Of a stretch of DNA of 43,423 nt, positions 1 through 43,423 are shown in pieces. Below the pieces are notes generated by a model that saw nothing but the letters and a program-made list of their open reading frames with translations, did no database searches and had not been told where the DNA came from. Position numbers and translations under genes: made by a program. The DNA lies in the IMG/VR virus record IMGVR_UViG_3300036846_000954, positions 1-43,423 of that record; one strand, given 5' to 3'. Each line of letters starts with the position of its first letter. The first letter of the stretch is position 1. The DNA is from a virus.

Positions 1-171
1 GGCCGCGCGATCGCGCTCGGCCGCGGCCAGGTGCTGCACCACCATCTCGGCGTCGAGGCGCCAGGGCGGCGGCTTGATGCCGACCGCGGCCAGCATCTCG
101 CTGTGACTGAGGCCTCGGCCGCGCCAGAAGAGGTACTGCTCGACGGCAAGCTGGTATGCGTCATCGTCCAC
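1..171 (-). CDS. Small phage protein, 3' part cut by window start (allele A)
   Basis: This is the left-hand copy of the 73-aa gene at 42535-42756, truncated at the window edge. It starts with GTG, one base after the TGA of the VRR-NUC gene upstream. The visible 57 residues include the conserved block HSEMLAAVGIKPPPWRLDAE, identical in both copies. No known domain is recognised. It sits between the nuclease and the replication protein in the leftward early operon. If the genome is circular, its 3' end is the sequence just before 42586. Confidence 0.65.
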   Translation of the reverse strand, partial: MDDDAYQLAVEQYLFWRGRGLSHSEMLAAVGIKPPPWRLDAEMVVQHLAAAERDRAA

Positions 172-172
172 G

Positions 173-616
173 TCACGCAGCCCGTCCGATCCGGCGCTCG
201 GGATCGAGCCAATCGGCCGGTAGGCGTCCCCAGAGGATCAGGGTGTCGCGGACCTCGTCCCAGCTCTGGCACACCGCGTAGCGGACGCCGTGCTGCTGGC
301 AGCGGGCTTCGAAGGCGAGTTGCTCGTCGCTCTGCCTGCCGCGCTGGTGGCGGTCGAATAGCCGGCGCTCTGCCGGCCGCTTCAGCTCGATGCCGCCGCT
401 CCCGTCGCGCCACAGGAACAGCAGATCGGGCGCGCCAGGCGTGAGTTGGCCCAGGGCCTTGAGCTGGTGGATGATGCGCCGAGCCATGTCCTGCTCGGCC
501 TTGCTGCGGGCCGGTATCCAGATCCCGTTCGGGCTGCCGATCACCAAACCATCGAGCGGCGCATGCGAGAGGCGCGTCATGACCTCCCGCTGGAGTGCCC
601 GCTCAACTTGCCGCAT
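173..616 (-). CDS. VRR-NUC domain nuclease, allele A
   Basis: A 147-aa stand-alone VRR-NUC protein, a PD-(D/E)XK-type nuclease family found in many phages and in FAN1; phage members often act on branched DNA. The core is visible: APD (D64), ELK (E77, K79) and Q99, followed by the family's HGVRYAVCQSWDEVRDTL-like end. It is read leftward after the YdaS-like gene and before the 73-aa gene and the replication protein. A G-rich Shine-Dalgarno stretch precedes ATG 616. Allele B at 42758-43201 differs at 16 of 147 residues but keeps all the core residues, so both look functional. Substrate is inferred from the family only. Confidence 0.88.
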   Translation of the reverse strand: MRQVERALQREVMTRLSHAPLDGLVIGSPNGIWIPARSKAEQDMARRIIHQLKALGQLTPGAPDLLFLWRDGSGGIELKRPAERRLFDRHQRGRQSDEQLAFEARCQQHGVRYAVCQSWDEVRDTLILWGRLPADWLDPERRIGRAA

Positions 617-683
617 CCCCTGCCCCCCTCAGGTAAAAACCCTAGACGCCGGGTGTCACCTGCGTGTAACTCGCAGGGCGTAT

Positions 684-698
684 GTTGCTATTCGCAAC
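684..698. promoter_or_regulatory. Operator-like palindrome GTTG-N7-CAAC (site 1)
   Basis: TGTTGCTATTCGCAACA is a 17-bp dyad with 6-bp arms in the gap between the YdaS-like gene (ends 722) and VRR-NUC (starts 616). It belongs to the eight-member set described in the findings. It is conserved in the right copy (43269-43283) with one change in the spacer. No convincing sigma70 promoter was found for either direction here. Confidence 0.7.
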
Positions 699-721
699 AA
701 TGTTCTGGACGAGTGGCGGGG

Positions 722-952
722 CTATGCGGTAACCAAGTCGTGATGCGAGGTCTCAGGGGCGGGCGTCCAGACGTCCGGCCGGATCAGATGCAGTGGAATG
801 CCAAGCTCTTTGGAGATCATCCTGGCGCGGTGGACTGGGACGAGGGCGTGTTTCGTCCGCTTCCAGCCGCACACGGTCGACCAATGCACCCCGGCCGCAT
901 CCGCCAGCCGACCAATGCCCCCCGCGAGCTGCGCGAGATCATCGATGCTCAT
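722..952 (-). CDS. YdaS/Cro-like DNA-binding protein
   Basis: A 76-aa helix-turn-helix protein of YdaS/Cro type: GGIGRLADAAGVHWSTVCGW forms the first helices and turn, followed by VHRARMISKELGIPLHLIRPDVW, the usual ending of these repressors. It is transcribed leftward, divergent from the XRE repressor at 1041, the classic arrangement of a phage immunity switch. It probably represses the repressor promoter and opens the leftward early operon (VRR-NUC, replication protein and onward). The start at ATG 952 has little Shine-Dalgarno character, and no strong -10 was seen, so a short leader is possible. A second, cut copy lies at the right end of the window. Confidence 0.8.
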   Translation of the reverse strand: MSIDDLAQLAGGIGRLADAAGVHWSTVCGWKRTKHALVPVHRARMISKELGIPLHLIRPDVWTPAPETSHHDLVTA

Positions 953-1623: not shown

Positions 1624-1761
1624 ATGCACATCGCTGCCGGTCTCGTTAACCTCCTGCGAACGGTGCAGGAGACCGGTCGACCGACGACCTACAATTCACG
1701 ATCGCTGATCGGTTTCGCCCTGGCGCTCCTCGGGCTCCTGGCGCTCGGGGTGCTGCTCTGA
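1624..1761 (+). CDS. 45-aa single-span membrane protein
   Basis: A short gene with ATG after GGGGGCC. The product has a polar N-terminal half and one C-terminal hydrophobic helix (LIGFALALLGLLALGVLL). Its TGA overlaps the ATG of the ERF gene (TGATGA), so it is translationally coupled to it and is the first gene of the recombination operon, 30 bases after operator site 2. No family is recognised. Host membrane targeting or superinfection exclusion are possible jobs but unsupported beyond topology. Confidence 0.6.
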   Translation: MHIAAGLVNLLRTVQETGRPTTYNSRSLIGFALALLGLLALGVLL

Positions 1762-2528
1762 TGAGCGATCAGCAGCTCGACCTCACACCCGGAGGCCCAT
1801 TCGAGGTTGTCCCCCGGAGCGAGGAGCGGACGCTCCTCGACATCATCGCCAGGGCCGCGAGTGATCCACAGACCGATGTGGATAAGCTCGAGCGGCTGAT
1901 GGCGTTGCACGAGCGCCACAAGACGCGCGAGGCCGAGATGGCTTACGCCGCCGCCCTCTCTGAGATGCAGCCGCTGCTGCCAGAGATCGAGGAGCAGGGC
2001 GAGATCCTCGACAAGCAGGGCGAGGTGCAGTCGACCTACGCCAAGTGGGAGGACGTGCAGCGGGCGATCAAGCCGATCTTGGCGGCGCACGGCTTCAGCC
2101 TCAATTTCGAGGTCGCGCGCGAGGAGGGTCAGATCGCCGTGACCGCGATCCTACACCATCGCGCGGGTCACTCGCAGCGCACCACCCTGCCGCTGCCGCT
2201 CGACACCAGCGGCAACAAGAACACGGTCCAGGCCTACGGCAGCAGCACCTCGTACGGCATGCGCTACACCGCCAGGGCGCTCCTCAATCTGACCTCCCGC
2301 GGCGCCGACGATGACGGTGTGGCCGGCGGCACGAAGCTGATCTCGGAGGGCGAGCGTGAGGCGCTGCAGGCGCTCGCCGACGTCGCGCAGGTCGACATGC
2401 GCCGGTTCTGTGCGTTCCTCAAGATCCCGAGCCTCGACCAGCTGCCGGCGCGGCGTTACCGGGTTGCCGAGCGCGCTCTGCAGGACGCTGCCGCGAAGCG
2501 GGAGGCGGCGCGAAAGGATCGCCCGTGA
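1761..2528 (+). CDS. erf: ERF-family single-strand annealing recombinase
   Basis: A 255-aa ERF superfamily protein. The family core spans ~60-195: AYAAALSEMQPLLPEI, YAKWEDVQRAIKPILAAHGF, a beta-rich region with HHRAGHSQ, and VQAYGSSTSYGMRYTARALL with the DDDG tail. ERF proteins form rings that anneal single strands during phage recombination and genome circularisation. The C-terminal part is charged and helical. It overlaps the exonuclease gene by four bases (GTGA), giving the usual annealase-exonuclease pair. Confidence 0.92.
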   Translation: MSDQQLDLTPGGPFEVVPRSEERTLLDIIARAASDPQTDVDKLERLMALHERHKTREAEMAYAAALSEMQPLLPEIEEQGEILDKQGEVQSTYAKWEDVQRAIKPILAAHGFSLNFEVAREEGQIAVTAILHHRAGHSQRTTLPLPLDTSGNKNTVQAYGSSTSYGMRYTARALLNLTSRGADDDGVAGGTKLISEGEREALQALADVAQVDMRRFCAFLKIPSLDQLPARRYRVAERALQDAAAKREAARKDRP

Positions 2529-3166
2529 TCCAGGTCCTCGATATGCCGCAGGGCTCGCCGGAATGGTATGAGGCGCGCCTCGGCCTGCCGACGGCGTCGG
2601 AGTTCGGCGCCATCCTAGCGAAGGGCCAGGGCAAAGTCCGGCGCGGCTATCTATGCCGCCTAGCCGCTGAGCGGATCCTCGGCGAGACGCAGGAGACTTT
2701 TTCCAACTACCATTTCCGGCGCGGCAAGGAGCTCGAGGCCGAGGCGCGCGAGCTCTATGCCTTCCTCAATGAGGTCGAGCCGACGATCGTGGGCTTTGTC
2801 CGCAACGAGATCGCCGGCTGCAGCCCCGATGCGCTGATCGGCGACGACGGCATGCTCGAGATCAAGACAAGATTGCCGGCGCTGATGGTCGACGTGCTCG
2901 CCCAGGGCCATGTGCCGGCCGAGCACAAGGCCCAGCTCCAGGGCGGCCTGTGGATCACCGAGCGGTCCTGGGTCGACTTCGTCGCCTACTGGCCGGGCAT
3001 GCCGCTGTTTGTCGTCAGGGTCGATCGCGACGCGGAGTACATCGAGACCCTGGCTAACGAAATCACCAAATTCGCCGCCGAGCTCGAGGAGATCGTGCGC
3101 CGGATCGGGATGACGCCCAGGGCGAGCGTGCTCGACATGCTGTTGCGGAGCGAGGCCGATGGCTGA
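2525..3166 (+). CDS. YqaJ/lambda-type 5'-3' exonuclease
   Basis: A 213-aa PD-(D/E)XK exonuclease of the YqaJ/lambda Exo family, which digests one strand of duplex ends to feed the annealase. Visible motifs: GSPEWYEARLGLPTASEFG near the N-terminus, RRGKELEAEAR at ~66-75, CSPDAL (D102) and LEIKTRL (E112, K114). The start is GTG at 2525, overlapping the ERF stop by four bases. Length is typical. Together the two genes form a complete recombination module under operator site 2. Confidence 0.92.
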   Translation: MIQVLDMPQGSPEWYEARLGLPTASEFGAILAKGQGKVRRGYLCRLAAERILGETQETFSNYHFRRGKELEAEARELYAFLNEVEPTIVGFVRNEIAGCSPDALIGDDGMLEIKTRLPALMVDVLAQGHVPAEHKAQLQGGLWITERSWVDFVAYWPGMPLFVVRVDRDAEYIETLANEITKFAAELEEIVRRIGMTPRASVLDMLLRSEADG

Positions 3167-3653
3167 CCCGCTCTGGTATCGATACAACGGTGCCGTCATG
3201 GTGCCGATGCGGCCCGACGAGGCGGCGCGGCAGTTCATTGTCGACGGGCGCTACCTGCTCGAGGCGCACCACGCCCGCGCGCATGCCAGGCACCGGGCCT
3301 ATTTCGCGGCGCTGCACGAGGCCTGGGGCAGCATCGCCACCGACGATTTCCCGACCTCGGAGCATCTGCGCAAGTTTGCGCTGATCAAGACCGGCTGGCG
3401 GCAGGAGCGGGTGCTGGCCTGTGAAACCCGCGAGCGGGCCGAGCGCACCGCTGCGTTCGTGCGCGGCCTGGACGATTACGCGATCGTCACCACCCACGAC
3501 GCCCTGGTGCGCGTCTGGACCGCGCGATCGCAGAGCTACAAAGCCATGGGACGCGACGACTTCAACCGATCGATGGACGACGTTCTCAACTATGTCGCCA
3601 GCCTCATCGGGGTCAGCAAAGAGACCCTCGAGGCCCAGGGAGAGATGGCATGA
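3159..3653 (+). CDS. DUF1367-like phage protein
   Basis: A 164-aa soluble protein. The block HRAYFAALHEAWGSI...LRKFALIKTGWRQE and the end DDFNRSMDDVLNYVASLIGV resemble the layout of DUF1367 phage proteins, which usually lie among phage recombination genes. The match is by pattern only. It overlaps the exonuclease by eight bases and the next gene by four (ATGA). A role in recombination or replication is inferred from position. Confidence 0.7.
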   Translation: MADPLWYRYNGAVMVPMRPDEAARQFIVDGRYLLEAHHARAHARHRAYFAALHEAWGSIATDDFPTSEHLRKFALIKTGWRQERVLACETRERAERTAAFVRGLDDYAIVTTHDALVRVWTARSQSYKAMGRDDFNRSMDDVLNYVASLIGVSKETLEAQGEMA

Positions 3654-4755: not shown

Positions 4756-4936
4756 TGTCACGGCTTTAGTCAAAGCCGTTAAAAACGCTGGAGAAAATGT
4801 CGCACGCGTGGAAGTTGACGGAGAGGGAAAGCTGGTCATATATGTTGGTGGTAGCAACAAGCCGGCTACCAGCAACCGATACGAGGAGAACCTCAATGCC
4901 AACCAAGCACTACGTGCAAAGTTTCGACGGTCGTAA
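4721..4936 (+). CDS. Small integrase-linked protein, possible excisionase/partner
   Basis: A 71-aa basic protein beginning MANRPRNFRQRDVTALVKAV, then a VARVEVDGEGKLVIYVG strand pair. Small proteins of this shape often lie next to tyrosine integrases in alphaproteobacterial prophages. ATG 4721 is used; a TTG four codons upstream is possible. It overlaps the previous gene by 35 bases and the integrase by 41 bases. The integrase promoter and operator lie inside its 3' half. A recombination-directionality role is an inference from location and size. Confidence 0.55.
   Translation: MANRPRNFRQRDVTALVKAVKNAGENVARVEVDGEGKLVIYVGGSNKPATSNRYEENLNANQALRAKFRRS
4815..4858 (+). promoter_or_regulatory. Integrase promoter with operator (site 3)
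   Basis: TTGACG (4815-4820), 17 bases, then ATATAT (4838-4843; TATATG with 18) form a good sigma70-type promoter. TGTTGGTGGTAGCAACA follows directly (core 4844-4858), covering the expected transcription start, 38 bases before the integrase ATG. The site lies inside the coding region of the preceding small gene. This suggests that integrase is repressed by the same regulator as the other sites. Confidence 0.65.
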
Positions 4937-6056
4937 CTACCTGCGGTTCAAGCAGCAGACCCGCGTGCGGCTGCCGGACGGCCCGCTCGCCGCGGTGCTG
5001 AAGACGCGCGAATACAAGGACGCGATCGCCGCCGCCAAGGCGGCCGACAAGCCGATCGAGCGCAAAAAAAAATCGCTCGGCGGCGGCCTCACAATCCGTG
5101 AGGTCGTCACCGAGCATATGGCGAGCGTGTACTGGCGCGAGAACATAAGCCACGGCACTCGCGTGACCCGCGGCTACGCCCTGATGGGCTGGGTCGACGG
5201 TCGCCACAACCGCGCGGGCGAGCTGGTGCGCGTCGGCCAGGGGGATGCATCGATCTACGATCTGACCCCGGAGCTACTCAGCCGAGAGCTGGCCGAGCGC
5301 CAGGCCGAGGACGGGCATTGGGCCGCGAACGCCTGGCTGGGCGCGGTCAGTGTGATGCTCAAGGAGCGCAAGCAGGCCTTCAGGATCAAGCGCGACTTCG
5401 ACCCCACCTTCGGGGTGAAGGCCTTCGGGCAGAAGAAGCAACGCACCGCCGACGACGGGTTCAAGACGCTGCCGCCGGAACTGCTGCAGCAGTACCTCGA
5501 CTATTGGCCCTATGCCTCGCCACAGCGCATCGCCGGCCTGATGCTGTACGTGACCGGCGCCGCCTGCTGCGACGTGATCAGGCTCTGCCTGTCGGACATC
5601 AAGGACGGCTTCTTCCAGGGCAAGCGACTGAAGACCGGTGTCGACTTCGTCACCGAGCAGACACCCGAGCTGATCGCCGAGATCAAGGCCGCCGGCATCG
5701 AGCTCGGGCCGATCGTCCGGCGCAAACCGCGCCGGGGGCAGGCTCTCGGCAAGGCATTCTCGCGGCTCCCGATCGAGGACGACCCGGAAGGGAATGCGGC
5801 CAGGGCGCACGCAGATGGTCGCCTGTTCTCTGAACAGTTCCGTGGCTGGCTATGGCGTGCCGGCGTCCCTGTCGGCTACGGCGCCCACAGCTTTCGCAAG
5901 CGGGCGGCCTGCGATGACGCGGTCGAGCGCGGCATGGACCCGACGTGGCTCAAGGCGAAATACGGCTGGAAGCAATCGACCGAGGTCGATCTCTATACCG
6001 AGAAGTTCAACCGCCTGCGGGTGATGCAGCTACGGAGCGGCGTGACAGTCGCCTGA
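4896..6056 (+). CDS. int: Tyrosine recombinase (integrase), first catalytic Arg absent
   Basis: 386 aa from ATG 4896, which has GAGGAGAA five bases upstream; the longer in-frame ORF lacks this. Residues ~55-130 hold an SAM-like core-binding domain and the C-terminal half the catalytic domain. HSFR (H331, R334), W358 in GWKQ, and nucleophile Y367 (DLYTEKF) are all in place. The box I motif, usually TGxRxxD, reads TGAACCD (around residues 220-226), so the first catalytic arginine is alanine. That would normally abolish strand cleavage unless another residue substitutes. It would integrate the phage through attP, possibly the dyad region right behind it. Confidence 0.88.
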   Translation: MPTKHYVQSFDGRNYLRFKQQTRVRLPDGPLAAVLKTREYKDAIAAAKAADKPIERKKKSLGGGLTIREVVTEHMASVYWRENISHGTRVTRGYALMGWVDGRHNRAGELVRVGQGDASIYDLTPELLSRELAERQAEDGHWAANAWLGAVSVMLKERKQAFRIKRDFDPTFGVKAFGQKKQRTADDGFKTLPPELLQQYLDYWPYASPQRIAGLMLYVTGAACCDVIRLCLSDIKDGFFQGKRLKTGVDFVTEQTPELIAEIKAAGIELGPIVRRKPRRGQALGKAFSRLPIEDDPEGNAARAHADGRLFSEQFRGWLWRAGVPVGYGAHSFRKRAACDDAVERGMDPTWLKAKYGWKQSTEVDLYTEKFNRLRVMQLRSGVTVA

Positions 6057-6081: not shown

Positions 6082-6168
6082 ACCTGACCAAAGTCTTTGA
6101 TAAACCTCACTTCCGGAAGTCGCAGCGGTAATTCCGGAAGTGAGGAAAATCAAGGGGTTTGGTCAGGT
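6082..6168. repeat. 37-nt-arm inverted repeat behind integrase (attP/arm site or hairpin candidate)
   Basis: Left arm 6082-6118 and right arm 6132-6168 match as an inverted repeat at 30 of 37 positions around a 13-base loop. Perfect blocks are ACCTGACCAAA, TTGAT and CCTCACTTCCGGAA. A further GTCACG/CGTGAC pair flanks it (6068-6073, 6172-6177). It starts 26 bases after the integrase stop, where attP often lies. It could be an integrase core/arm site, a recombination-directionality binding site, or a transcript-end hairpin; the mismatched blocks resemble a crossover spacer design. Confidence 0.7.
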
Positions 6169-7611: not shown

Positions 7612-9434
7612 CCAGCAGCCAACGGCGTAGCCCCCATCGCGCCTCCCGCGAGCAGGGCTGTAGGCAAGCTATAACCTTTAGCCAGCGCACCGCCGGCCGC
7701 GCCCATCGCCAGGCTAGGCACGCTGAGTAACGAGGCTACCGGGGCGGTGTTGCTCGTGTTGGCAAATCGCGCAGTGTCCCGCATCGAGCTTCCAACGGTT
7801 CGCAAATCGGCGATGCGCCCTGCGACGCCAGGGTCAGCACCGTAGAGCGCGTCAAACGCCTGCGGTGATAGCCTGTTCGTGTTGGTCAGGAATGTATTCG
7901 GCGAGACCATCGGCCCCATGTTGGGTGCCGCACGCTGACCCGGCGTCGCCAGACCCATCAGCCGCAAATGCGCTGCCGCTAGCTCGTCAGCGGCGCCGGG
8001 CATCTCATCGCGGATCGCCTGCAGCCCTGTGCCACCACTCGCAGAACCAGACATCGCCCGCGTATAGGCCGCCTCTGGAGTGATCATTCCTGGGCGGGGA
8101 GCGAGGTACTTTGAGACCGTATCATCGATAAAGCTATGTCCGGCTCGGGTCAGGTTGTTCGCCGCGTTATAAGCATCGACAGCATCCGATCCAAGCGGAT
8201 GCACCGCGCCTCTGAGATCTTCGCTCAGTGCCCCATAAATCCGGCGCAACTCACCGTAATTTGTGTCGCCGATCAGATTTGTATCGGTGAGCATGTCGCC
8301 GATCCGGGTGCGCATGCCCCGCACGGTATCCCAATCGAGCGGCCGGCCAATCCGGGCATCCGAGATCAGCGCATCGAGCAGATTTCGCGACAATGGCGAC
8401 TGTAAAACATCCGCCGTTGCCGGGGCGCCGGCCATCTGGCTGCGGACCTGGTTGAGCGTTCTGGCGTAGTTGGTGACCGGCACTGGAGTGGCGCCAGGAA
8501 CCAGCATGTCGACATTGTTCCAGGCCTGCCTGCTATTCGCTCTGAACTGATCCATCCAGTTGCCAGAAGCCACCTGCAGGGCTGTACCGGCTTCCTGCGG
8601 ATTGGTCGACGCGCCAAGGTCGGCGGCTGTGTTCTCGAGCTGATTGCCCCACTGGTCGAGATTGCGAGCCTGAGCGGCGCGGTAACCACCTGAGCCAGGC
8701 AGCTTTGTCACATTCGCAGCAACCAGCTGGGTCAAAGGCCCAGCATTAACATCCTGCCGCATCGGCGTCATGCCGAGCCGCGTCATTGCATCGGTTGTGG
8801 GCGACGTCGCCCTGGGGCCGGCAAGGCGACCAGTGGCTAGACCGGTTGCCATTGAGACGGCGGGCCTGACCCAGCCCGGCGCGTTGGGAGCGACCTCCGA
8901 CACGGCCTGCCCGGCACCGCCGCTGGTCATGCCGGCAATCATCCGAGGAACCGCGGTCTCCGCGCCGCCCACGAGCGAAGGGATAGCCTGACTAAGCGCC
9001 TCCTGCCCGATCCGGCCGGCGGCGGTCTGTGGCACGTATGGCCCGCGCTCCGGGTTGCCAACGGCCGCGCGCATCGCGTCGATGGCGGAAAAGATGCCGC
9101 TGTTGATCTCCTCGGGCGAGTAGGTGTGGCGGGTGAGGAAGCCTGGCGGCCCCATCTGCGGTGGCCCTTGGTAAGGCGTCATTGGCTGCCCGGTCACGTC
9201 GAGGCCGCCATACCCTGGGGCGGCGTCGCCAAGGCCGGCCACGACGTGCGGTAGCCCACCGACGTTGCCGACGCCCTTGAGGATACCGGTCGCCGCGTTC
9301 GTGGCAGTGTCGTTGATCTGCCCCCGCCAGCTCTCATGGTAGAGGTGCTGCTGGGTGGCAGCATTGATCTCGTCGTCCGACATATTGTCGGGGAAGTTGA
9401 TCGTGTCGCCTCCAGGCAGATCGACTGTCGTCAT
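7521..9434 (-). CDS. Internal virion/DNA-ejection protein (last late gene)
   Basis: 637 aa from ATG 9434, which overlaps the preceding stop by four bases. The N-terminus carries DTINFPDNMSDDEINAA, a short motif common at the start of phage ejection and tail proteins. The middle is helical and polar; the C-terminus has Ala/Gly-rich hydrophobic stretches (LLSVPSLAMGAAGGALAKGY, LLAGGAMGATPLAAGYLG) that could cross a membrane. As the last gene of the leftward structural operon after two other large internal proteins, it matches the third ejection protein of podoviruses. Similarity is by position and composition, not by a recognised domain. Confidence 0.65.
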   Translation of the reverse strand: MTTVDLPGGDTINFPDNMSDDEINAATQQHLYHESWRGQINDTATNAATGILKGVGNVGGLPHVVAGLGDAAPGYGGLDVTGQPMTPYQGPPQMGPPGFLTRHTYSPEEINSGIFSAIDAMRAAVGNPERGPYVPQTAAGRIGQEALSQAIPSLVGGAETAVPRMIAGMTSGGAGQAVSEVAPNAPGWVRPAVSMATGLATGRLAGPRATSPTTDAMTRLGMTPMRQDVNAGPLTQLVAANVTKLPGSGGYRAAQARNLDQWGNQLENTAADLGASTNPQEAGTALQVASGNWMDQFRANSRQAWNNVDMLVPGATPVPVTNYARTLNQVRSQMAGAPATADVLQSPLSRNLLDALISDARIGRPLDWDTVRGMRTRIGDMLTDTNLIGDTNYGELRRIYGALSEDLRGAVHPLGSDAVDAYNAANNLTRAGHSFIDDTVSKYLAPRPGMITPEAAYTRAMSGSASGGTGLQAIRDEMPGAADELAAAHLRLMGLATPGQRAAPNMGPMVSPNTFLTNTNRLSPQAFDALYGADPGVAGRIADLRTVGSSMRDTARFANTSNTAPVASLLSVPSLAMGAAGGALAKGYSLPTALLAGGAMGATPLAAGYLGSRYLRSVPRTFSPGALPVGAVPGLLQ

Positions 9435-12142
9435 TGTGGCACCGCCCGCCCCAGCTGGGGATCCCATCTAAGCTGCCGACCGCCTCCGCTGGTGGGAGGC
9501 GGCGCGCCAGGCAGTCCCTTGATCGTGCCGGCGAGTTCCTCGCGAGCGCCCTGGACGAACTCTTCCAGCGGGTTCTCTCGCATCCAGGCCAGCTTAAAGC
9601 TGTCGGGATTGACCCAGCGCGAGCCATCGGTCCCGACCATGGTCTGGGCGTGGTTCCAGTCCTGCGAGAGCGACTGGAGCTGACGCACCTGACCGATGTC
9701 GGCAGACAGCAGGTTGAGGTTCGCCTCGGGTTGGCTGCCGACATCCTCGCCGGCCTTGGAGTTGATCTGGAACTCGCCACCAGTAAACTTCTTATTCACT
9801 GCCGCCAGCTGGTTTAGGGTCTGCTTGTAGTTGGCATGCATCGCGGTCTGAACCGCCGCCAGATCGGCGACGCTCTGCGGTGGCTTAATGCCCAGGCGTT
9901 GGGCGAGCGCCTGCCACATGCCCTGCACCTCGGCCGACTGCTCCGCCCAGGTGCCGGTCTGGATCGTCTTGAAGGCGTCTCGCAGCATATTGAGGTTTGT
10001 CTCAGCACGCTGCGCCGCGAGGCCGGCATCGGCCAGCTCGCCGCTCTCCTTGATCCATTCGGACTGCGACGCACTGTAAGTCTTAAGATCGGGCGTGCGC
10101 GCCTGCTGGGTGATGGCTGGTATTTTGGTCTGATAGCCGCGGCTGGCATTGTCCGGCGACGGCATTGGCTTGCCAGGGTCGACGCCGCCTTGTTCTGGCG
10201 GCAGGACACCAGCCCTGATCGGCTCCCCTGGGATGCCGACCCCGCGACCGAGTTCGGCGCCGATCTCCTGCGCCTTGGTCTGGCCCGGCGACAGCGAGGC
10301 CTGCCCCATATCGGTCTCGCTTATCGTTTGACCACCTACTGTCCAACGACCTGCGTAATTGTGCATGGTCCCATCGGGAGCAACGCGGGTCCGCGTTCCA
10401 GTAAAGGTCTGGTCGAGCGGGTTGTAATAGAGACCACCCCCGCCGCGAATGTTTGCCGGCTCCAGTTGTTTTGTTGCGACACCATAGGGGAATTTTACGT
10501 TCTCCTGCGCCTGCGCGGTCGCCTGCGCGGTCGCGACGGTTATCGGGTAGGAGGCGATCTTCTGCTCGCTTTCCGGCACCGGCAGACCCCAGGTCGAATT
10601 GTACTGGACGATCTGCTTCGCCAGGGCGATGCGCTCCGGGCTCGGTGCCCCGGGGATCGCGGCTGGGGTCGGCGTGGGAATGCGGGCAAAAGGCGCTGCG
10701 GCGCCCCCAGGAGCGCCTGAAGGCGGCGGGGCTACCTCAGGTGCCCCCGGCTGCGTCATCAGCCCTGGTGGGCCTCCTGGGGGCGCAGGCTGTCCGACCC
10801 GCGGCACGTTCGGCGGTAGCCCTACGGGGGGCGGCGGGATGTTCTGTGATGGCAGGGCCGGGGCGGCAGGCGGCAGCGGTGCAACGGCGCGCTGCTGGGC
10901 CATGGTGTTGGCGAGAGAGCCGCCCGTCAGGAGACCCGGCGGCGCTACGTCACCGCCAGCCTGGGGCGGGAGTGGCGCGGGGGCGCCGCCGCCAGCGCCA
11001 ATGACCCGACCGGCACCGACCTGCGGCCCTGGGGGCGCGGCGGCGGGCGGCTGGTTGAGGAGACCGCCCGGTGGACCGAGCCGGCCGGCGAAGTCGGGAA
11101 CCTGCGGCAGCGCGCCGGGACCAGGGGCTGCGGCCGGCACGGGCAACGGCGCATTCGCGCCCAGCGGTCGCCGGCCGAGCGCCGCGGCGGCGGTGCCGGC
11201 GATTTCCGGCGCGCCGGTCGCCCCGGCGGGAGCGGGCGCGATCGCGGCCTCGGTCGATCCAGGCCCGCCGGGCACCTTGATGACATCGCCGCGAGCGTAG
11301 GCTTCCCGCAGGGGTCCATTGAACGGCAGCCAGTCACTCAGCCCGGGATTGACGGCCTTCATCGCCTTGGCGACCGCGACCTGCGACGCCGCGGAGAAGT
11401 CAGGCTGCATCTGGCCGGACGCGATCAGGGGCGGGGCAAATTTGTCCCAGTTCGTGCGGGTGATCTGGAAGTAGCCGGCCGCCGTCGAGCGGCCATACTT
11501 GGTCGGGATGCCTTCCCACATCGGGAAGCCGTTCTGGTTGAGCTGGTAGCCCGAGAGATCGTGGTCACCCGTGCCGACGTTGGGCCGGTAGCCGCTCTCG
11601 TGATAGGCGATCAGGTTGAGCTGCGGGTCGCCGAAATCAACGATCTCGCCCTTGGCCTTGTCGAGCAGCTTGGGCGCGGGTGTGGTGCCGGGCGGCCCGG
11701 CAGCAGCGCCGCCAGCGCCGGCCCTGTCCATGGCCGCGGCCTGCGCCTGCATCCCCATCGACGCCATGCGCGCCTGGATCAACGCCCGCTGGGTCTCGGC
11801 CTGGACGCCGTAGAGCTGGCCCTGGGCTGCCTGGGTGCGGGCGGCGATCGTCGGGTCATTCGCCGTCGCCGCGGCGTTGGCGGCGGCGCCGATCGTGGCG
11901 CCAAACGGGACGCCGCCCCGGTACGGCACCGGCATGGCGCCCTGACCAAAGGCATTCGCCATCGCCGCCAGGGAGCGGTTGCGGAAGGCGTCGATCGTCG
12001 CCTGGTCGGTGAGCTGGCCGCCATACATCGCCGCCGGGCTGTACCCGCCACCGGAGAGGAGGCCGCCGAGGAAGCCGGGGCTCTGCGGCGCTTGCGGCTG
12101 CGGGATCGGTGGGGGCTCGAGGAGGCCAGGGGGATCAGCCAT
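9431..12142 (-). CDS. Large virion protein with lysozyme-like domain
   Basis: 903 aa. Residues ~170-290 hold a peptidoglycan hydrolase-like domain: IAYHESGYRPN (E182 the candidate acid), then RSTAAGYFQITRTNWDKF, as in phage lysozyme/transglycosylase folds (GH104-like STAAGRYQ motif). Residues ~300-510 are a long Pro/Gly/Ala linker. The C-terminal ~350 residues are helical. The likely job is local cell-wall digestion during DNA ejection. No separate endolysin was found in the window, so it may be the only muramidase. It overlaps both neighbours by a few bases. Confidence 0.72.
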   Translation of the reverse strand: MADPPGLLEPPPIPQPQAPQSPGFLGGLLSGGGYSPAAMYGGQLTDQATIDAFRNRSLAAMANAFGQGAMPVPYRGGVPFGATIGAAANAAATANDPTIAARTQAAQGQLYGVQAETQRALIQARMASMGMQAQAAAMDRAGAGGAAAGPPGTTPAPKLLDKAKGEIVDFGDPQLNLIAYHESGYRPNVGTGDHDLSGYQLNQNGFPMWEGIPTKYGRSTAAGYFQITRTNWDKFAPPLIASGQMQPDFSAASQVAVAKAMKAVNPGLSDWLPFNGPLREAYARGDVIKVPGGPGSTEAAIAPAPAGATGAPEIAGTAAAALGRRPLGANAPLPVPAAAPGPGALPQVPDFAGRLGPPGGLLNQPPAAAPPGPQVGAGRVIGAGGGAPAPLPPQAGGDVAPPGLLTGGSLANTMAQQRAVAPLPPAAPALPSQNIPPPPVGLPPNVPRVGQPAPPGGPPGLMTQPGAPEVAPPPSGAPGGAAAPFARIPTPTPAAIPGAPSPERIALAKQIVQYNSTWGLPVPESEQKIASYPITVATAQATAQAQENVKFPYGVATKQLEPANIRGGGGLYYNPLDQTFTGTRTRVAPDGTMHNYAGRWTVGGQTISETDMGQASLSPGQTKAQEIGAELGRGVGIPGEPIRAGVLPPEQGGVDPGKPMPSPDNASRGYQTKIPAITQQARTPDLKTYSASQSEWIKESGELADAGLAAQRAETNLNMLRDAFKTIQTGTWAEQSAEVQGMWQALAQRLGIKPPQSVADLAAVQTAMHANYKQTLNQLAAVNKKFTGGEFQINSKAGEDVGSQPEANLNLLSADIGQVRQLQSLSQDWNHAQTMVGTDGSRWVNPDSFKLAWMRENPLEEFVQGAREELAGTIKGLPGAPPPTSGGGRQLRWDPQLGRAVPQ

Positions 12143-31203: not shown

Positions 31204-31818
31204 TCAAAAGCCGCCGGGGCCGCCATAGCCGCCAAAGCCGCCCCCAATACCGCCGCTGCCGAGCCGGCTCCTGAGCAGCGCCATCAGCGAGGGCTGCCCG
31301 CCGCCGAGCTGGCCGCCGATCGAGCCGCCGAGATTGTTGCCACCGACATTGAGCGGATTGCCCGCCATCATCGGGTTCATCGGCGGCTGACCAGCCTGGT
31401 TCGCCATCCCCGGGTTCATCTGGCCCATCATCCGAGCGAACATCGGGTTCATCATCGGCTGGGCCGGGTTCATCATCGGGTTCGGCGCGACCTGCGGACC
31501 CGGGCTCGACATCGGGCTCGGCGGCGGTGCGCCCGGCATCATGCCGGCCTGGGGCGGGGTCGCGGCGCGCATGCTCGCGGCTGCCTGGGCGGCCTGCTGC
31601 AGCCGGATCTGCGCCATCTGGTTCTGCTGGTCCGGCGTCAGCGTCGCCCCGGCGCCCATCGCGGCGGGTCCTCCGACGCCAGGCAGGGCCGGCGGCTGCG
31701 GGATCGGCGGGGCACCACCAGGACCGCCTAAGAGGCCTGGCGGCATCGGTGGCGCCATGCCGCCCATGCCGCCGGCACCGAACAGCATCGATGGATCGTA
31801 CCAATCGGGAGCCGGCAT
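31204..31818 (-). CDS. Met/Pro/Gly-rich low-complexity protein
   Basis: 204 aa, with MPPGLLGGPGGAPPIPQPPA, repeated PMMNPAQPMMNP-type runs and a Gly-rich tail. The GLL-Pro tag recalls the virion proteins at 9431-12581, so it may be virion-associated despite being in an accessory operon. Start ATG 31818 touches the radical SAM gene's stop. No domain. Confidence 0.55.
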   Translation of the reverse strand: MPAPDWYDPSMLFGAGGMGGMAPPMPPGLLGGPGGAPPIPQPPALPGVGGPAAMGAGATLTPDQQNQMAQIRLQQAAQAAASMRAATPPQAGMMPGAPPPSPMSSPGPQVAPNPMMNPAQPMMNPMFARMMGQMNPGMANQAGQPPMNPMMAGNPLNVGGNNLGGSIGGQLGGGQPSLMALLRSRLGSGGIGGGFGGYGGPGGF

Positions 31819-32714
31819 CAGCTTACCTCGAATAAAGAGGCTTGTTCTGGACCGCGCCGGATGCGGCTGGTCTTTGCCGAGGCGTCGTAATCGGCAAAAC
31901 TGACACCAGCGCGGCGGGCGTAATTACACCATCGCTGGACACGCCGCAGGCGGTGCTCGGTCCAGTCGTGAAGGATCATCGGGTATCGCGTCCGCGCGTT
32001 CAGTTTCATCACCGGCTGTGCATAAGGTTCGCCGCCCCAACGGACGACAGCCTCGATGCGGGCCATGCACTCGCGGAACGGCTCATTGCCGATCAACGTA
32101 TAGACCTGGATCTTGCGCGGGCGCACGCCAGCCTGGCGCAGCATCTGCATCACCGGCTCGACAAAGACGCCCTCGGGGATATCGTCATAGGCGAACCGCC
32201 ACACACCGCGATTGATCGGGCGCCAGCGCCGGAAAACCTCCTCGGTGAAGGTGCGCGGCTCGAACCCGCTATTGGCATCGATGAGGGGCACGCCTTCCTG
32301 TTGATAGCGAGCGATGATGTGGTCCTGATACTCCGCCGGCAGCGCCGAAAGATTGTTGTCGCAGAGGATCGGCCGCACCGGGAAGTCCGGCAGCAAGGTG
32401 AAGCCGCGGCCTTCCATTGCCGGCACGATACAGAACCAGCACCCGACCGGGCAGCCGCGGCTGGCGATCGTCGCATCCGGGTGATGGCGTGCGATCGCGT
32501 CGGGGTAATCGTCTGCGATCTCGGCGACGGCGGCGATCTCCCGCCGCAGCTTCGGCAGAAAAAATGCCGGGCCACCGGCAATTACCCGATATCCCAGAGC
32601 GCGCCACCACACCGCTCGCTCAAAGGCCTGGTCGATGCTCCAGGTGAAGGCGACCGACAGATAGGCTGTATCTCCATCGGTCCACTCGGCCAGGCCGCCA
32701 ACCCATTTCCGCAT
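31818..32714 (-). CDS. Radical SAM enzyme
   Basis: 298 aa from ATG 32714. The [4Fe-4S] motif is RGCPVGCWFC (C88, C92, C95, spacing Cx3Cx2C), in a TIM-barrel-like protein with AGGPAFFLPKLR and PVMQMLRQAGVRPRKIQVYT later. Substrate not known; phage radical SAM enzymes may modify tRNA, nucleotides or proteins. C-terminus is basic (CNYARRAGVSFADY). It sits among small unknown genes in a leftward operon with a HiPIP-like protein upstream. Confidence 0.82.
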   Translation of the reverse strand: MRKWVGGLAEWTDGDTAYLSVAFTWSIDQAFERAVWWRALGYRVIAGGPAFFLPKLRREIAAVAEIADDYPDAIARHHPDATIASRGCPVGCWFCIVPAMEGRGFTLLPDFPVRPILCDNNLSALPAEYQDHIIARYQQEGVPLIDANSGFEPRTFTEEVFRRWRPINRGVWRFAYDDIPEGVFVEPVMQMLRQAGVRPRKIQVYTLIGNEPFRECMARIEAVVRWGGEPYAQPVMKLNARTRYPMILHDWTEHRLRRVQRWCNYARRAGVSFADYDASAKTSRIRRGPEQASLFEVS

Positions 32715-32716
32715 CC

Positions 32717-33007
32717 TCAGACCCTGGCCTGCCAAGCCGCCAAATCCGGCGCCGAGCCGCCGCAATCGGTGCATTCGGGACCGAGCGGCGAGAACGGGTC
32801 GGCCCGGCCGCCGCAAAACGGGCAGGCCAGGAGCCGCACGATGCCGCCATATTGGTGATGCGACGCGAGGTAGTTGGCCGCGTCGAGATCCGGCCCCGAC
32901 GGCTCGGGGAGGCTGTTCGGCGGCAGCCAGTTGACGTTATCGGTCAAGGAATAGCCGCGCCCCTCGAGGTGCAGCACCGCCGTCTCTTCGCTATCGAACT
33001 CAGTCAT
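32717..33007 (-). CDS. Lar-like Zn-ribbon protein
   Basis: 96 aa. C-terminal CPFCGG ... CTDCG with DLAAWQAR is the Lar/restriction-alleviation Zn-ribbon pattern. Lar family members protect phage DNA from host type I restriction; here only the fold is supported. Overlaps the next upstream gene by eight bases and ends two bases before the radical SAM start. Confidence 0.6.
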   Translation of the reverse strand: MTEFDSEETAVLHLEGRGYSLTDNVNWLPPNSLPEPSGPDLDAANYLASHHQYGGIVRLLACPFCGGRADPFSPLGPECTDCGGSAPDLAAWQARV

Positions 33008-41359: not shown

Positions 41360-42061
41360 TCAGTCCTCCAGGCCAATGGCGCGGGCGATCAGGCGCCGGT
41401 TGCGGACCTCTCGCTGACACTGGTCGATCATCTCGGCCAGCGACGGGAAGAAGGTTTCGCGCCGAGCGATTTTGCGCAGTGCGCTGCGGATCACATCGGG
41501 CGGGAACTCGACCAGCTCCTCGGCGAGCGCGACGTAGGTCAGCTCACGATCGGTCTCGTCGCCGGCACGGCTTTTGGTGAGCATGCGCAGTCGCGCCAGC
41601 TCCTCGACCACCATCTTCGGTGGTGCGGGAGCTAGAGCGATGGCGGCCAGCTTCCTGGCCCGCTGCAGCCGCGTAACCTCGAGCCGCGCTGCTAACTCAT
41701 AGCCGGTGACGCGGTAATCCCAGCCGTAATGCGGATCGATGAAGCTTTCAGTCCGTAAAACGAGCGGCTGCCCGAGCTGCTGCCCTAAGTTCGCTAGCAG
41801 GACCGCGTCGGTCTTCTCCGGGTCGGCTCCCGCTAGCGGGCCGCTGATGAGAACCGTTGGTAAATTCGGGGGTGCGGCGACACCAGTTTCGCCAGACTGC
41901 GTGCCAATCCCGCTTGCAGGCGTCAGCTCCTGCCTTGGCGACCCAGTGGTCTCGGAAGGTGCCGGCGACCTCGTCGGCGTCGAGACCCCGTTCGGCAGCG
42001 AACTGGCGATCGATGAGGTCAGGGGTCCAATCGGGCGCAATCCGTGATCCTCGTCCGGCAT
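41360..42061 (-). CDS. Replication-associated protein, start uncertain
   Basis: The natural region, from about 41860 to 41360, has GQQLGQPLVLRTESFIDPHY, a GYELAARLEVTRLQRARKLA segment and LVEFPPDVIRSALRKIARRE, similar to proteins that follow DUF1376-type replication genes in rhizobial phages. The only early start in frame is ATG 42061, overlapping the replication gene by 314 bases through unnatural sequence, so the true start or an indel near 41860 is unresolved. It is probably a helicase-loader or co-factor. Confidence 0.5.
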   Translation of the reverse strand: MPDEDHGLRPIGPLTSSIASSLPNGVSTPTRSPAPSETTGSPRQELTPASGIGTQSGETGVAAPPNLPTVLISGPLAGADPEKTDAVLLANLGQQLGQPLVLRTESFIDPHYGWDYRVTGYELAARLEVTRLQRARKLAAIALAPAPPKMVVEELARLRMLTKSRAGDETDRELTYVALAEELVEFPPDVIRSALRKIARRETFFPSLAEMIDQCQREVRNRRLIARAIGLED

Positions 42062-42533
42062 GGTTTGCCTCCGCAGGTTTGATGGGGGGGGTATCGAAGA
42101 GAGGGGGATCAGCTACGTCAGTAGCTGATACTTTGATGGTTGATGGTTGATGGATAGCATTACCGGCCTGTATAACCGCCGTATCGGCTGTTTTCTTATT
42201 TTCCCGGTACTTAGCCCATCGCTTCGAGACATTCTGCGAAGAACTTATCGACCGGTTGCGCGCGAGTTGCAGCTCACTTGTGCAGCGGTTGTTGACAAAA
42301 TAGTCCCCCTCGATGGTCAGCTTGCCGCTACTGACGAGCGCATTGATCGCCGGCTTATAAACGCGAGGATCGCTACTACACATCCGCCGAACGGCCTTCT
42401 GCAGCGCCCGGCCGCCGCCGTTGTAGATCAGCAAAATCGCCCGCCAGTAGATGCCCATCTCGACATCGGTGAGGCCGATCGTGCCGGCGATAAATTCATC
42501 GAAACTGAGGTCGACGCGCCGGATCTTCGCCAT
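41748..42533 (-). CDS. DUF1376-type replication protein
   Basis: 261 aa from ATG 42533, one base after the upstream stop; a larger in-frame ORF reaching 42998 is an artefact that crosses the VRR-NUC gene. The N-terminus (VDLSFDEFIAGTIGLTDVEM, GIYWRAILLIYNGGG) matches DUF1376 replication-initiation proteins, and a DnaT-like end has DRQFAAERGLDADEVAGTFR and DWHAVWRNWCRR. It probably loads host replication machinery, since no phage helicase or polymerase was found. The final ~30 residues are Arg/Ser-rich, possibly out-of-frame. Confidence 0.75.
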   Translation of the reverse strand: MAKIRRVDLSFDEFIAGTIGLTDVEMGIYWRAILLIYNGGGRALQKAVRRMCSSDPRVYKPAINALVSSGKLTIEGDYFVNNRCTSELQLARNRSISSSQNVSKRWAKYRENKKTADTAVIQAGNAIHQPSTIKVSATDVADPPLFDTPPIKPAEANHAGRGSRIAPDWTPDLIDRQFAAERGLDADEVAGTFRDHWVAKAGADACKRDWHAVWRNWCRRTPEFTNGSHQRPASGSRPGEDRRGPASELRAAARAAARFTD

Positions 42534-42534
42534 C

Positions 42535-42756
42535 TCAGGCCGCGCCCCGCCACCACCAGACCGTGCGGTTCTTGGGGTCGATGCTGGCCGCGCGATCGCG
42601 CTCGGCCGCGGCCAGGTGCTGCACCACCATCTCGGCGTCGAGGCGCCAGGGCGGCGGCTTGATGCCGACCGCGGCCAGCATCTCGCTGTGAGTGAGACCC
42701 TGGCCGCGCCAGAAGACGTACTGCTCGACGGCAAGCTCGTATGCACCATCGTCCAC
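42535..42756 (-). CDS. Unknown 73-aa protein (complete copy)
   Basis: GTG 42756. VEQYVFWRGQGLTHSEMLAA and GIKPPPWRLDAEMVVQHLAA; ends WWWRGAA. Highly similar to the cut copy at 1-171. Helical, unknown function, between the nuclease and replication genes. The promoter-proximal overlap (one base) makes translation coupled. Confidence 0.65.
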   Translation of the reverse strand: MDDGAYELAVEQYVFWRGQGLTHSEMLAAVGIKPPPWRLDAEMVVQHLAAAERDRAASIDPKNRTVWWWRGAA

Positions 42757-42757
42757 G

Positions 42758-43201
42758 TCACGCAGCCCGTCCGATCCGGCGCTCCGGATCGAGCCAGCCG
42801 GCCGGTAGGCGGCCCCAGAGGATCAGGGTGTCGCGGACCTCGTCCCAGCTCTGGCAGACCGCGTAGCGGACGCCGTGGCGCTCGCTGCGGGCTTCGAAGG
42901 CGAGCTGCTCGTCGCTCTGCCGGCCGCGCGGCTGCCGGCCGAATAGCCGGGCCTCGGGTGGCCGCTTCAATTCGATGCCGCCAGAGCCGTCTCGCCACAG
43001 GAAGAGCAGGTCAGGCGCGCCGGGCGTGAGTTGGCCCAGGGCCTTCAATTGATGGACGATGCGCCGAGCCATCTCCTGCTCGGCCGCGGTGCCGGCCGGG
43101 ATCCAGATCCCATTGGGAGAGCCGATCACCAGGGCATCGAGCGGCGCGTGCGAGAGGCGCGCCATGACCTCCCGCTGGAGTGCCCGCTCGACCTGCCGCA
43201 T
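42758..43201 (-). CDS. VRR-NUC domain nuclease, allele B
   Basis: 147 aa, about 89% identical to allele A, with 16 substitutions such as K39A, A82P and C106S. The core residues D64, E77, K79 and Q99 are kept, so both should be active. Substitutions cluster at 36-49 and 82-109, away from the active-site core and perhaps on a substrate or partner surface. Same operon place as allele A. Confidence 0.88.
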   Translation of the reverse strand: MRQVERALQREVMARLSHAPLDALVIGSPNGIWIPAGTAAEQEMARRIVHQLKALGQLTPGAPDLLFLWRDGSGGIELKRPPEARLFGRQPRGRQSDEQLAFEARSERHGVRYAVCQSWDEVRDTLILWGRLPAGWLDPERRIGRAA

Positions 43202-43268
43202 CCCCTGCCCCCCTCAGGTAAAAACCCTAGACGCCGGGTGTCACCCGCGTGTAATTCGCAGGGCGTAT

Positions 43269-43283
43269 GTTGCTAGTCGCAAC
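43269..43283. promoter_or_regulatory. Operator-like palindrome (site 1, right copy)
   Basis: TGTTGCTAGTCGCAACA. Differs from site 1 by one spacer base (T to G), keeping both arms. It lies between VRR-NUC allele B and the cut YdaS-like gene. Confidence 0.7.
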
Positions 43284-43305
43284 AATGTGCTGGACGGTGG
43301 CGGGG

Positions 43306-43423
43306 CTATGCGGTAACCAAGTCGTGATGCGAGGTCTCAGGGGCGGGCGTCCAGACGTCCGGCCGGATCAGATGCAGTGGAATGCCAAGCTCTTTGGAGA
43401 TCATCCTGGCGCGGTGGACTGGG
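43306..43423 (-). CDS. YdaS/Cro-like protein, 5' part cut by window end
   Basis: The last 38 codons of the same protein as at 722-952, identical in the visible part. The gene starts beyond the window. Confidence 0.75.
   Translation of the reverse strand, partial: PVHRARMISKELGIPLHLIRPDVWTPAPETSHHDLVTA

Follow-up and report, generated by a model that had tools for sequence, protein, structure and literature searches.

Two versions of a VRR-NUC nuclease gene at the overlapping ends of a phage contig: probable strain variants of a single gene

The closest described relatives of the protein considered here are the nucleases psNUC, stNUC and saNUC, with which, as far as the available text of PMC4103454 describes them, it shares a single-domain build, membership of the Pfam VRR_NUC family and the PD, EXK and Q motifs. 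The same text gives E-PD-EXK with a conserved Q as the catalytic set of VRR-Nuc proteins, and describes a β1-β2 linker in psNUC that extends over the active-site surface. A second described system bears on how the gene is laid out: the available text of PMC10914622, whose context is repeats, reports that contig ends at assembly breaks share maxK bases, and says of within-population variation merely that such variation was simulated.

The window, by which we mean the whole stretch of DNA analysed, is an entire virus record of 43,423 nt (Table 1). The two ends of this contig match each other at 92% identity over about 838 bases, and the VRR-NUC gene lies inside the overlap and so appears twice, as allele A at the contig start and allele B at its end.

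Table 1. Positions of the features discussed in the text
Feature	Position	Strand	Remarks
Left overlap member, allele A side	1..839	.	A/B differences only at 107-712
VRR-NUC gene, allele A	173..616	-	147 aa; Pfam VRR_NUC 29.1 bits
Exact 127-nt repeat of 43297-43423 (the contig's final bases)	713..839	.	Read as assembly-graph junction
Erf-like single-strand annealing protein	1761..2528	+	
YqaJ/RecE-like exonuclease	2525..3166	+	
NinB/Orf-like recombination mediator, weak	3159..3653	+	PHROG 319, E 1.4e-6
Primosomal/replication-initiation-like gene	41748..42533	-	261 aa; PHROG 3992, E 2.3e-19
Small ORF adjoining VRR-NUC	42535..42756	-	73 aa if GTG start; no PHROG match
Right overlap member, allele B side	42586..43423	.	
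VRR-NUC gene, allele B	42758..43201	-	147 aa; same gene at other contig end; Pfam VRR_NUC 25.1 bits

The VRR-NUC protein and its neighbours

Both alleles exceed the cut-off of 23.8 bits for Pfam VRR_NUC (PF08774), and no other Pfam family is found in the protein at an E-value of 0.01. The catalytic set is present in both as P63-D64, E77-L-K79 and Q99, with E5 and E11 as N-terminal candidates for the catalytic E. The original prediction had the active-site residues kept, and D64, E77, K79 and Q99 are indeed the same in A and B and do not vary across five compared rows, of which four are distinct, while in the L005 row the P of the PD motif is replaced by A. The protein departs from psNUC, stNUC and saNUC in that a search of PDB by sequence gave no VRR-NUC match and the fold matches are weak. 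The predicted structure, examined for a restriction-endonuclease-like fold, is of low confidence (pLDDT 62, pTM 0.62); with this model Foldseek ranked 4qbn first and two 4qbl chains third and fourth, at E-values of 0.18 and above, and VIA-align gave a Z of 4.7 for 4qbl and 4qbn, no higher than the rows of ribosomal proteins, which top its list. The PDB entries 4qbl, 4qbn and 4qbo are titled VRR_NUC, and we take them to be the structures of stand-alone psNUC, stNUC and saNUC.

For both alleles the best PHROG is phrog_824, of unknown function, followed by endonuclease and Holliday junction resolvase PHROGs, and a tblastn search of the phage collection returned only the 'holliday junction resolvase' of Ochrobactrum phage POI1126 (two entries), which has 37.8% identity over half of the VRR-NUC protein. 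Judged by its sequence, the protein is a stand-alone VRR-NUC, and its family and neighbourhood suggest that it is most likely a dimeric, metal-dependent resolvase of the Holliday-junction type that would work with the phage Erf and YqaJ proteins. A junction-resolvase role serving Erf/YqaJ recombination seems probable to us, and its likely job would be the resolution of branched intermediates of recombination-dependent replication. A known defence-system role was considered and rejected, there being no PADLOC match at an E-value of 0.01 for A, B or the small ORF.

The primosomal gene next to the small ORF has its likely start at the ATG at 42533; the PHROG 3992 search used 41748-42665 in the same frame, and the match begins at residue 52. 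The weak recombination mediator also matches PHROG 15346, of unknown function, with an E-value of 3.2e-41. When distant YqaJ-bearing phages were searched for VRR-NUC with a shallow profile of five rows, only G001's own locus matched among 51 loci, many of which are fragments, and a 571-aa protein of the window was found among viral contigs in G001 only.

Several other features of the contig were recorded. Relatives of its TerL with 50-55% identity occur at 16 loci of proteobacterial genomes (L068-L083), 10 of them from Alphaproteobacteria by title, and the closest phage record in the genome and phage collections searched is Acetobacter phage phiAX1 (59%); these relatives give a hint of the host group. 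The divergent genes at 722-952 and 1029-1538 encode a YdaS-like or repressor-like protein (below the Pfam cut-off) and an HTH protein, a pair that could form a temperate switch. A gene for a radical SAM domain protein lies at 31818-32816 (PHROG 9298, E 5.4e-16), and a 903-aa ORF at 9431-12142 has no PHROG match at an E-value of 0.001 and 29% identity to the relative G002 over residues 1-620. Just after the ORF at 4797-6056 there is a long hairpin (6082-6168), present in both near-identical contigs; the segment 6070-6180 has a predicted energy of -55.6 kcal/mol (z -8.1), none of 200 shuffles folding as well, and the hairpin is a candidate for a terminator or for some other role.

One gene at an assembly junction

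Between alleles A and B, 54 of the 444 bases and 16 of the 147 residues are different, so that the figure of about 89% protein identity in the original prediction was right. The setting is a different one, however: where a locus with two alleles had been described, there is a single contig whose two ends overlap. The divergent block spans 107-712, about 600 bases. On the far side of the gene, at 617-711, there are four differences in 95 bases plus an indel, and there are none in 1-106 or in 713-839. The flanks are thus identical, as had been stated, but they are short, at 106 and 127 bases, and each is truncated where the contig stops.

The end of the contig falls at a telling place. Its suffix is found again at 713-839 for 127 nt, a suffix of 128 nt does not recur, and the final difference between A and B is a one-base indel near 712, directly ahead of this repeat. 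A contig end exactly k bases past the last variant is expected where paths rejoin in a de Bruijn graph with k=127. We infer that this record was assembled by metaSPAdes at k=127, a usual largest k. An overlap of exactly k bases with the path that is rejoined occurs at the right end only; at the left the exact repeat is 106 nt, which is not a clean k=127 branch and speaks against the reading of one gene in two variants, although sharing of 106 nt would fit a path of allele A that probably broke off at low coverage. The exact 127-nt end repeat is thus like the maxK ends of PMC10914622, as the available text of that paper describes them, and the 106-nt repeat at the left is unlike them.

Contig IMGVR_UViG_3300036832_000352 (27,816 bases) crosses the junction: its match to the window descends from 25129 to 840, passes without a break to 43423 and descends again to 39898. 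Against the window closed through B it has four differences (at 42057, 42060, 42075 and 17229) in 26,987 compared bases, none of them in the end-overlap region, and its VRR-NUC copy is identical to allele B. The presence of a single copy across the junction argues for one gene and supports B independently. VRR-NUC matches number one in this contig, one in G002, one in G003 (a 10,257-base fragment) and two in the window, and the 99-nt exact repeat at the ends of G002 is what a genome with a circular map should show. A B-specific 24-mer was found in one viral contig, 3300036832_000352, and an A-specific 24-mer in no other viral contig, in a search that may omit records very near the window. A 19-base stretch inside the primosomal gene (42057-42075) contains three of the four positions at which 3300036832_000352 departs from the window, so that another small cluster of variants lies close to the junction.

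We therefore consider it very likely that the two versions represent one gene in two strain variants at an assembly junction, and the data support the view that the alleles vary within one phage population. The map of the phage genome is a circle of about 42.6 kb on which VRR-NUC occurs once, as the junction-crossing contig shows, and the sample would contain two strain variants distinguished by a block of about 600 bases (107-712). To judge by the 127-nt overlap, the assembly was very likely run at k=127 and would have left their paths unmerged, with A at the contig start and B at its end. Two real gene copies in one genome, by tandem or terminal duplication, could explain why both versions are intact ORFs on one contig, but this is extremely unlikely in view of the exact 127-nt overlap and the single matches in G002 and the G003 fragment, and it is rejected on the evidence of the junction-crossing contig with its one copy. 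A mis-join of contigs from unrelated phages, one of the two cases named beforehand as refuting the original prediction, would account for A being present at the contig start only, with no second record returned by the A-specific 24-mer among viral contigs. The same gene order, the 89% protein identity and the identical flanks of 106 and 127 bases point instead to the variant of a close relative, and we regard a mis-join as very improbable.

Variability of the gene and selection on it

The VRR-NUC gene had been put forward as the one strongly variable gene of the locus. The density of A/B differences is, however, 8 in 66 bases at 107-172 (12.1%) and 54 in 444 in the gene itself (12.2%), and 107-172 is nearly all 5′ part of the next gene, the small ORF, which varies equally there and carries five amino acid replacements in codons 1 to 22 (window 107-171 for the copy on the A side). 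Its place in the overlap is what made the VRR-NUC gene appear variable; two alleles are visible in the overlap only, so other genes come without an A-against-B strain comparison, 3300036832_000352 being a B genome. The claim is thus not supported and reflects mostly an ascertainment effect. When 17 window genes, a hand-chosen subset, were ranked by the identity of their best segment, VRR-NUC came sixth (allele A, 75%) or eighth (allele B, 72%) of the 16 genes matched in G002, and second (67%) of the 11 matched in G003, the other six being without a match in what is a fragment. The HTH and primosomal genes have 33-42% identity to relatives. VRR-NUC stands in the middle to upper part of the conservation range, is not fast-evolving, and looks an ordinary gene.

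Diversifying selection on the gene, for instance through escape from a host inhibitor, had been suggested as one cause of the variation; it might have focused the changes on a surface near the active site. Between the alleles dN is 0.075 and dS 0.34, a ratio of 0.22; the ratio is 0.23-0.25 against G002 and 0.37-0.46 against G003. All values are below 1, which indicates that purifying selection dominates, and gene-wide diversifying selection, for which a dN/dS above 1 and faster change than in the neighbours were looked for, is rejected.

The predicted clustering of changes is real in the numbers, with 13 of the 16 replacements in residues 36-49 and 82-109. In a permutation test with 1000 random placements, a count as high as 13 within two windows of these sizes, wherever they were put, came up only twice; the sizes came from the original prediction, which makes the test post hoc. 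Residues 36-49 have 6 nonsynonymous and 0 synonymous changes and residues 82-109 have 9.5 and 4.5, a sum of 15.5 replacements against 4.5 silent changes. The two segments hold 14 of the 46 G002-G003 differences (30%) with 42 of the 147 residues, about their share by length, which gives no plain sign of general hypervariability; sites that vary between A and B also differ between these relatives at 8 of 16, compared with 36 of 131 elsewhere (Fisher P 0.06). The clustering is the single result that favours the original prediction and, coming from one allele pair, would fit local selection and relaxed constraint alike. Set against it are the gene-wide ratio of 0.22, the mid to high conservation, the single allele pair with segments picked post hoc, and the continuation of the same block, just as dense in differences, into the next gene, and we find diversifying selection on VRR-NUC very unlikely. 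Signs of a host inhibitor or of an altered substrate did not turn up either.

Mapping the changes on a structure, as had been proposed, was possible as far as secondary structure, the model (pLDDT 62) being too weak beyond that. In this low-confidence model the segment that links predicted core strands one and two takes in the replacements at 37-49, and the EXK motif is followed by a helix and loop that contain those at 82-91. As the psNUC linker extends over the active-site surface in the available text of PMC4103454, the changes at 37-49 might affect DNA binding, a speculative suggestion.

A possible recombination tract

One gene in two strain variants is compatible with recombination having brought a tract of about 600 bases with A from a related phage into a near-identical genome, which concerns only the origin of A. 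The flanks have no differences in 106 bases at the left and 127 at the right beside a block that differs at about 11%, and they are not frozen, G002 showing 27 differences in 103 sites at the left and 35 in 127 at the right. At the in-gene rate 0 in 106 has a chance of about 1e-6, and Erf and YqaJ recombination genes are present in the phage. Against this, agreement over the right 127 bases follows from the way a k=127 graph is built, 0 in 106 has a P of about 0.01 at the rate beside the gene (4 in 95), and the sequence of A is known within the overlap only. A swap by homologous recombination, as originally proposed, therefore stands as a plausible short tract, given the 106 identical left bases, but no donor was found for it.

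Sites within the block favour neither relative clearly. Across the 66 substitution sites the base in G002 agrees with A 31 times, with B 24 times and with neither 11 times, and the counts for G003 are 28, 28 and 10; a mosaic of B with G002-like sequence was rejected, as these counts give no clear donor signal. Among viral contigs, 3 of 17 pattern matches and 3 of 84 alignment matches held relatives, the same three contigs in both cases and none with A, and no VRR-NUC relative was found in 144 stretches of the genome collection; these searches, too, may have passed over entries that lie very close to the window. We give recombination as the origin of A slightly less than an even chance. There is a slim chance that such a tract swaps junction-nuclease variants, together with the start of the next gene, between near-identical phages, that its replacements gather in the β1-β2 linker and in the helix after the EXK motif, and that it thereby alters junction binding or evades an inhibitor. 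For the two strain variants of the single gene, the difference would be ordinary divergence under mostly purifying selection, possibly by way of a short homologous-recombination tract.

These observations call for caution with other viral contigs, in that diverged gene copies at opposite ends, with an exact overlap of length k at one of them, point to strain variation left unresolved in a circular map and not to gene duplication or hypervariability. Because its end repeat is inexact, a contig of this kind might escape recognition as a complete genome. If the tract was indeed brought in by recombination, the locus would be one more allele replacement in a phage recombination gene.
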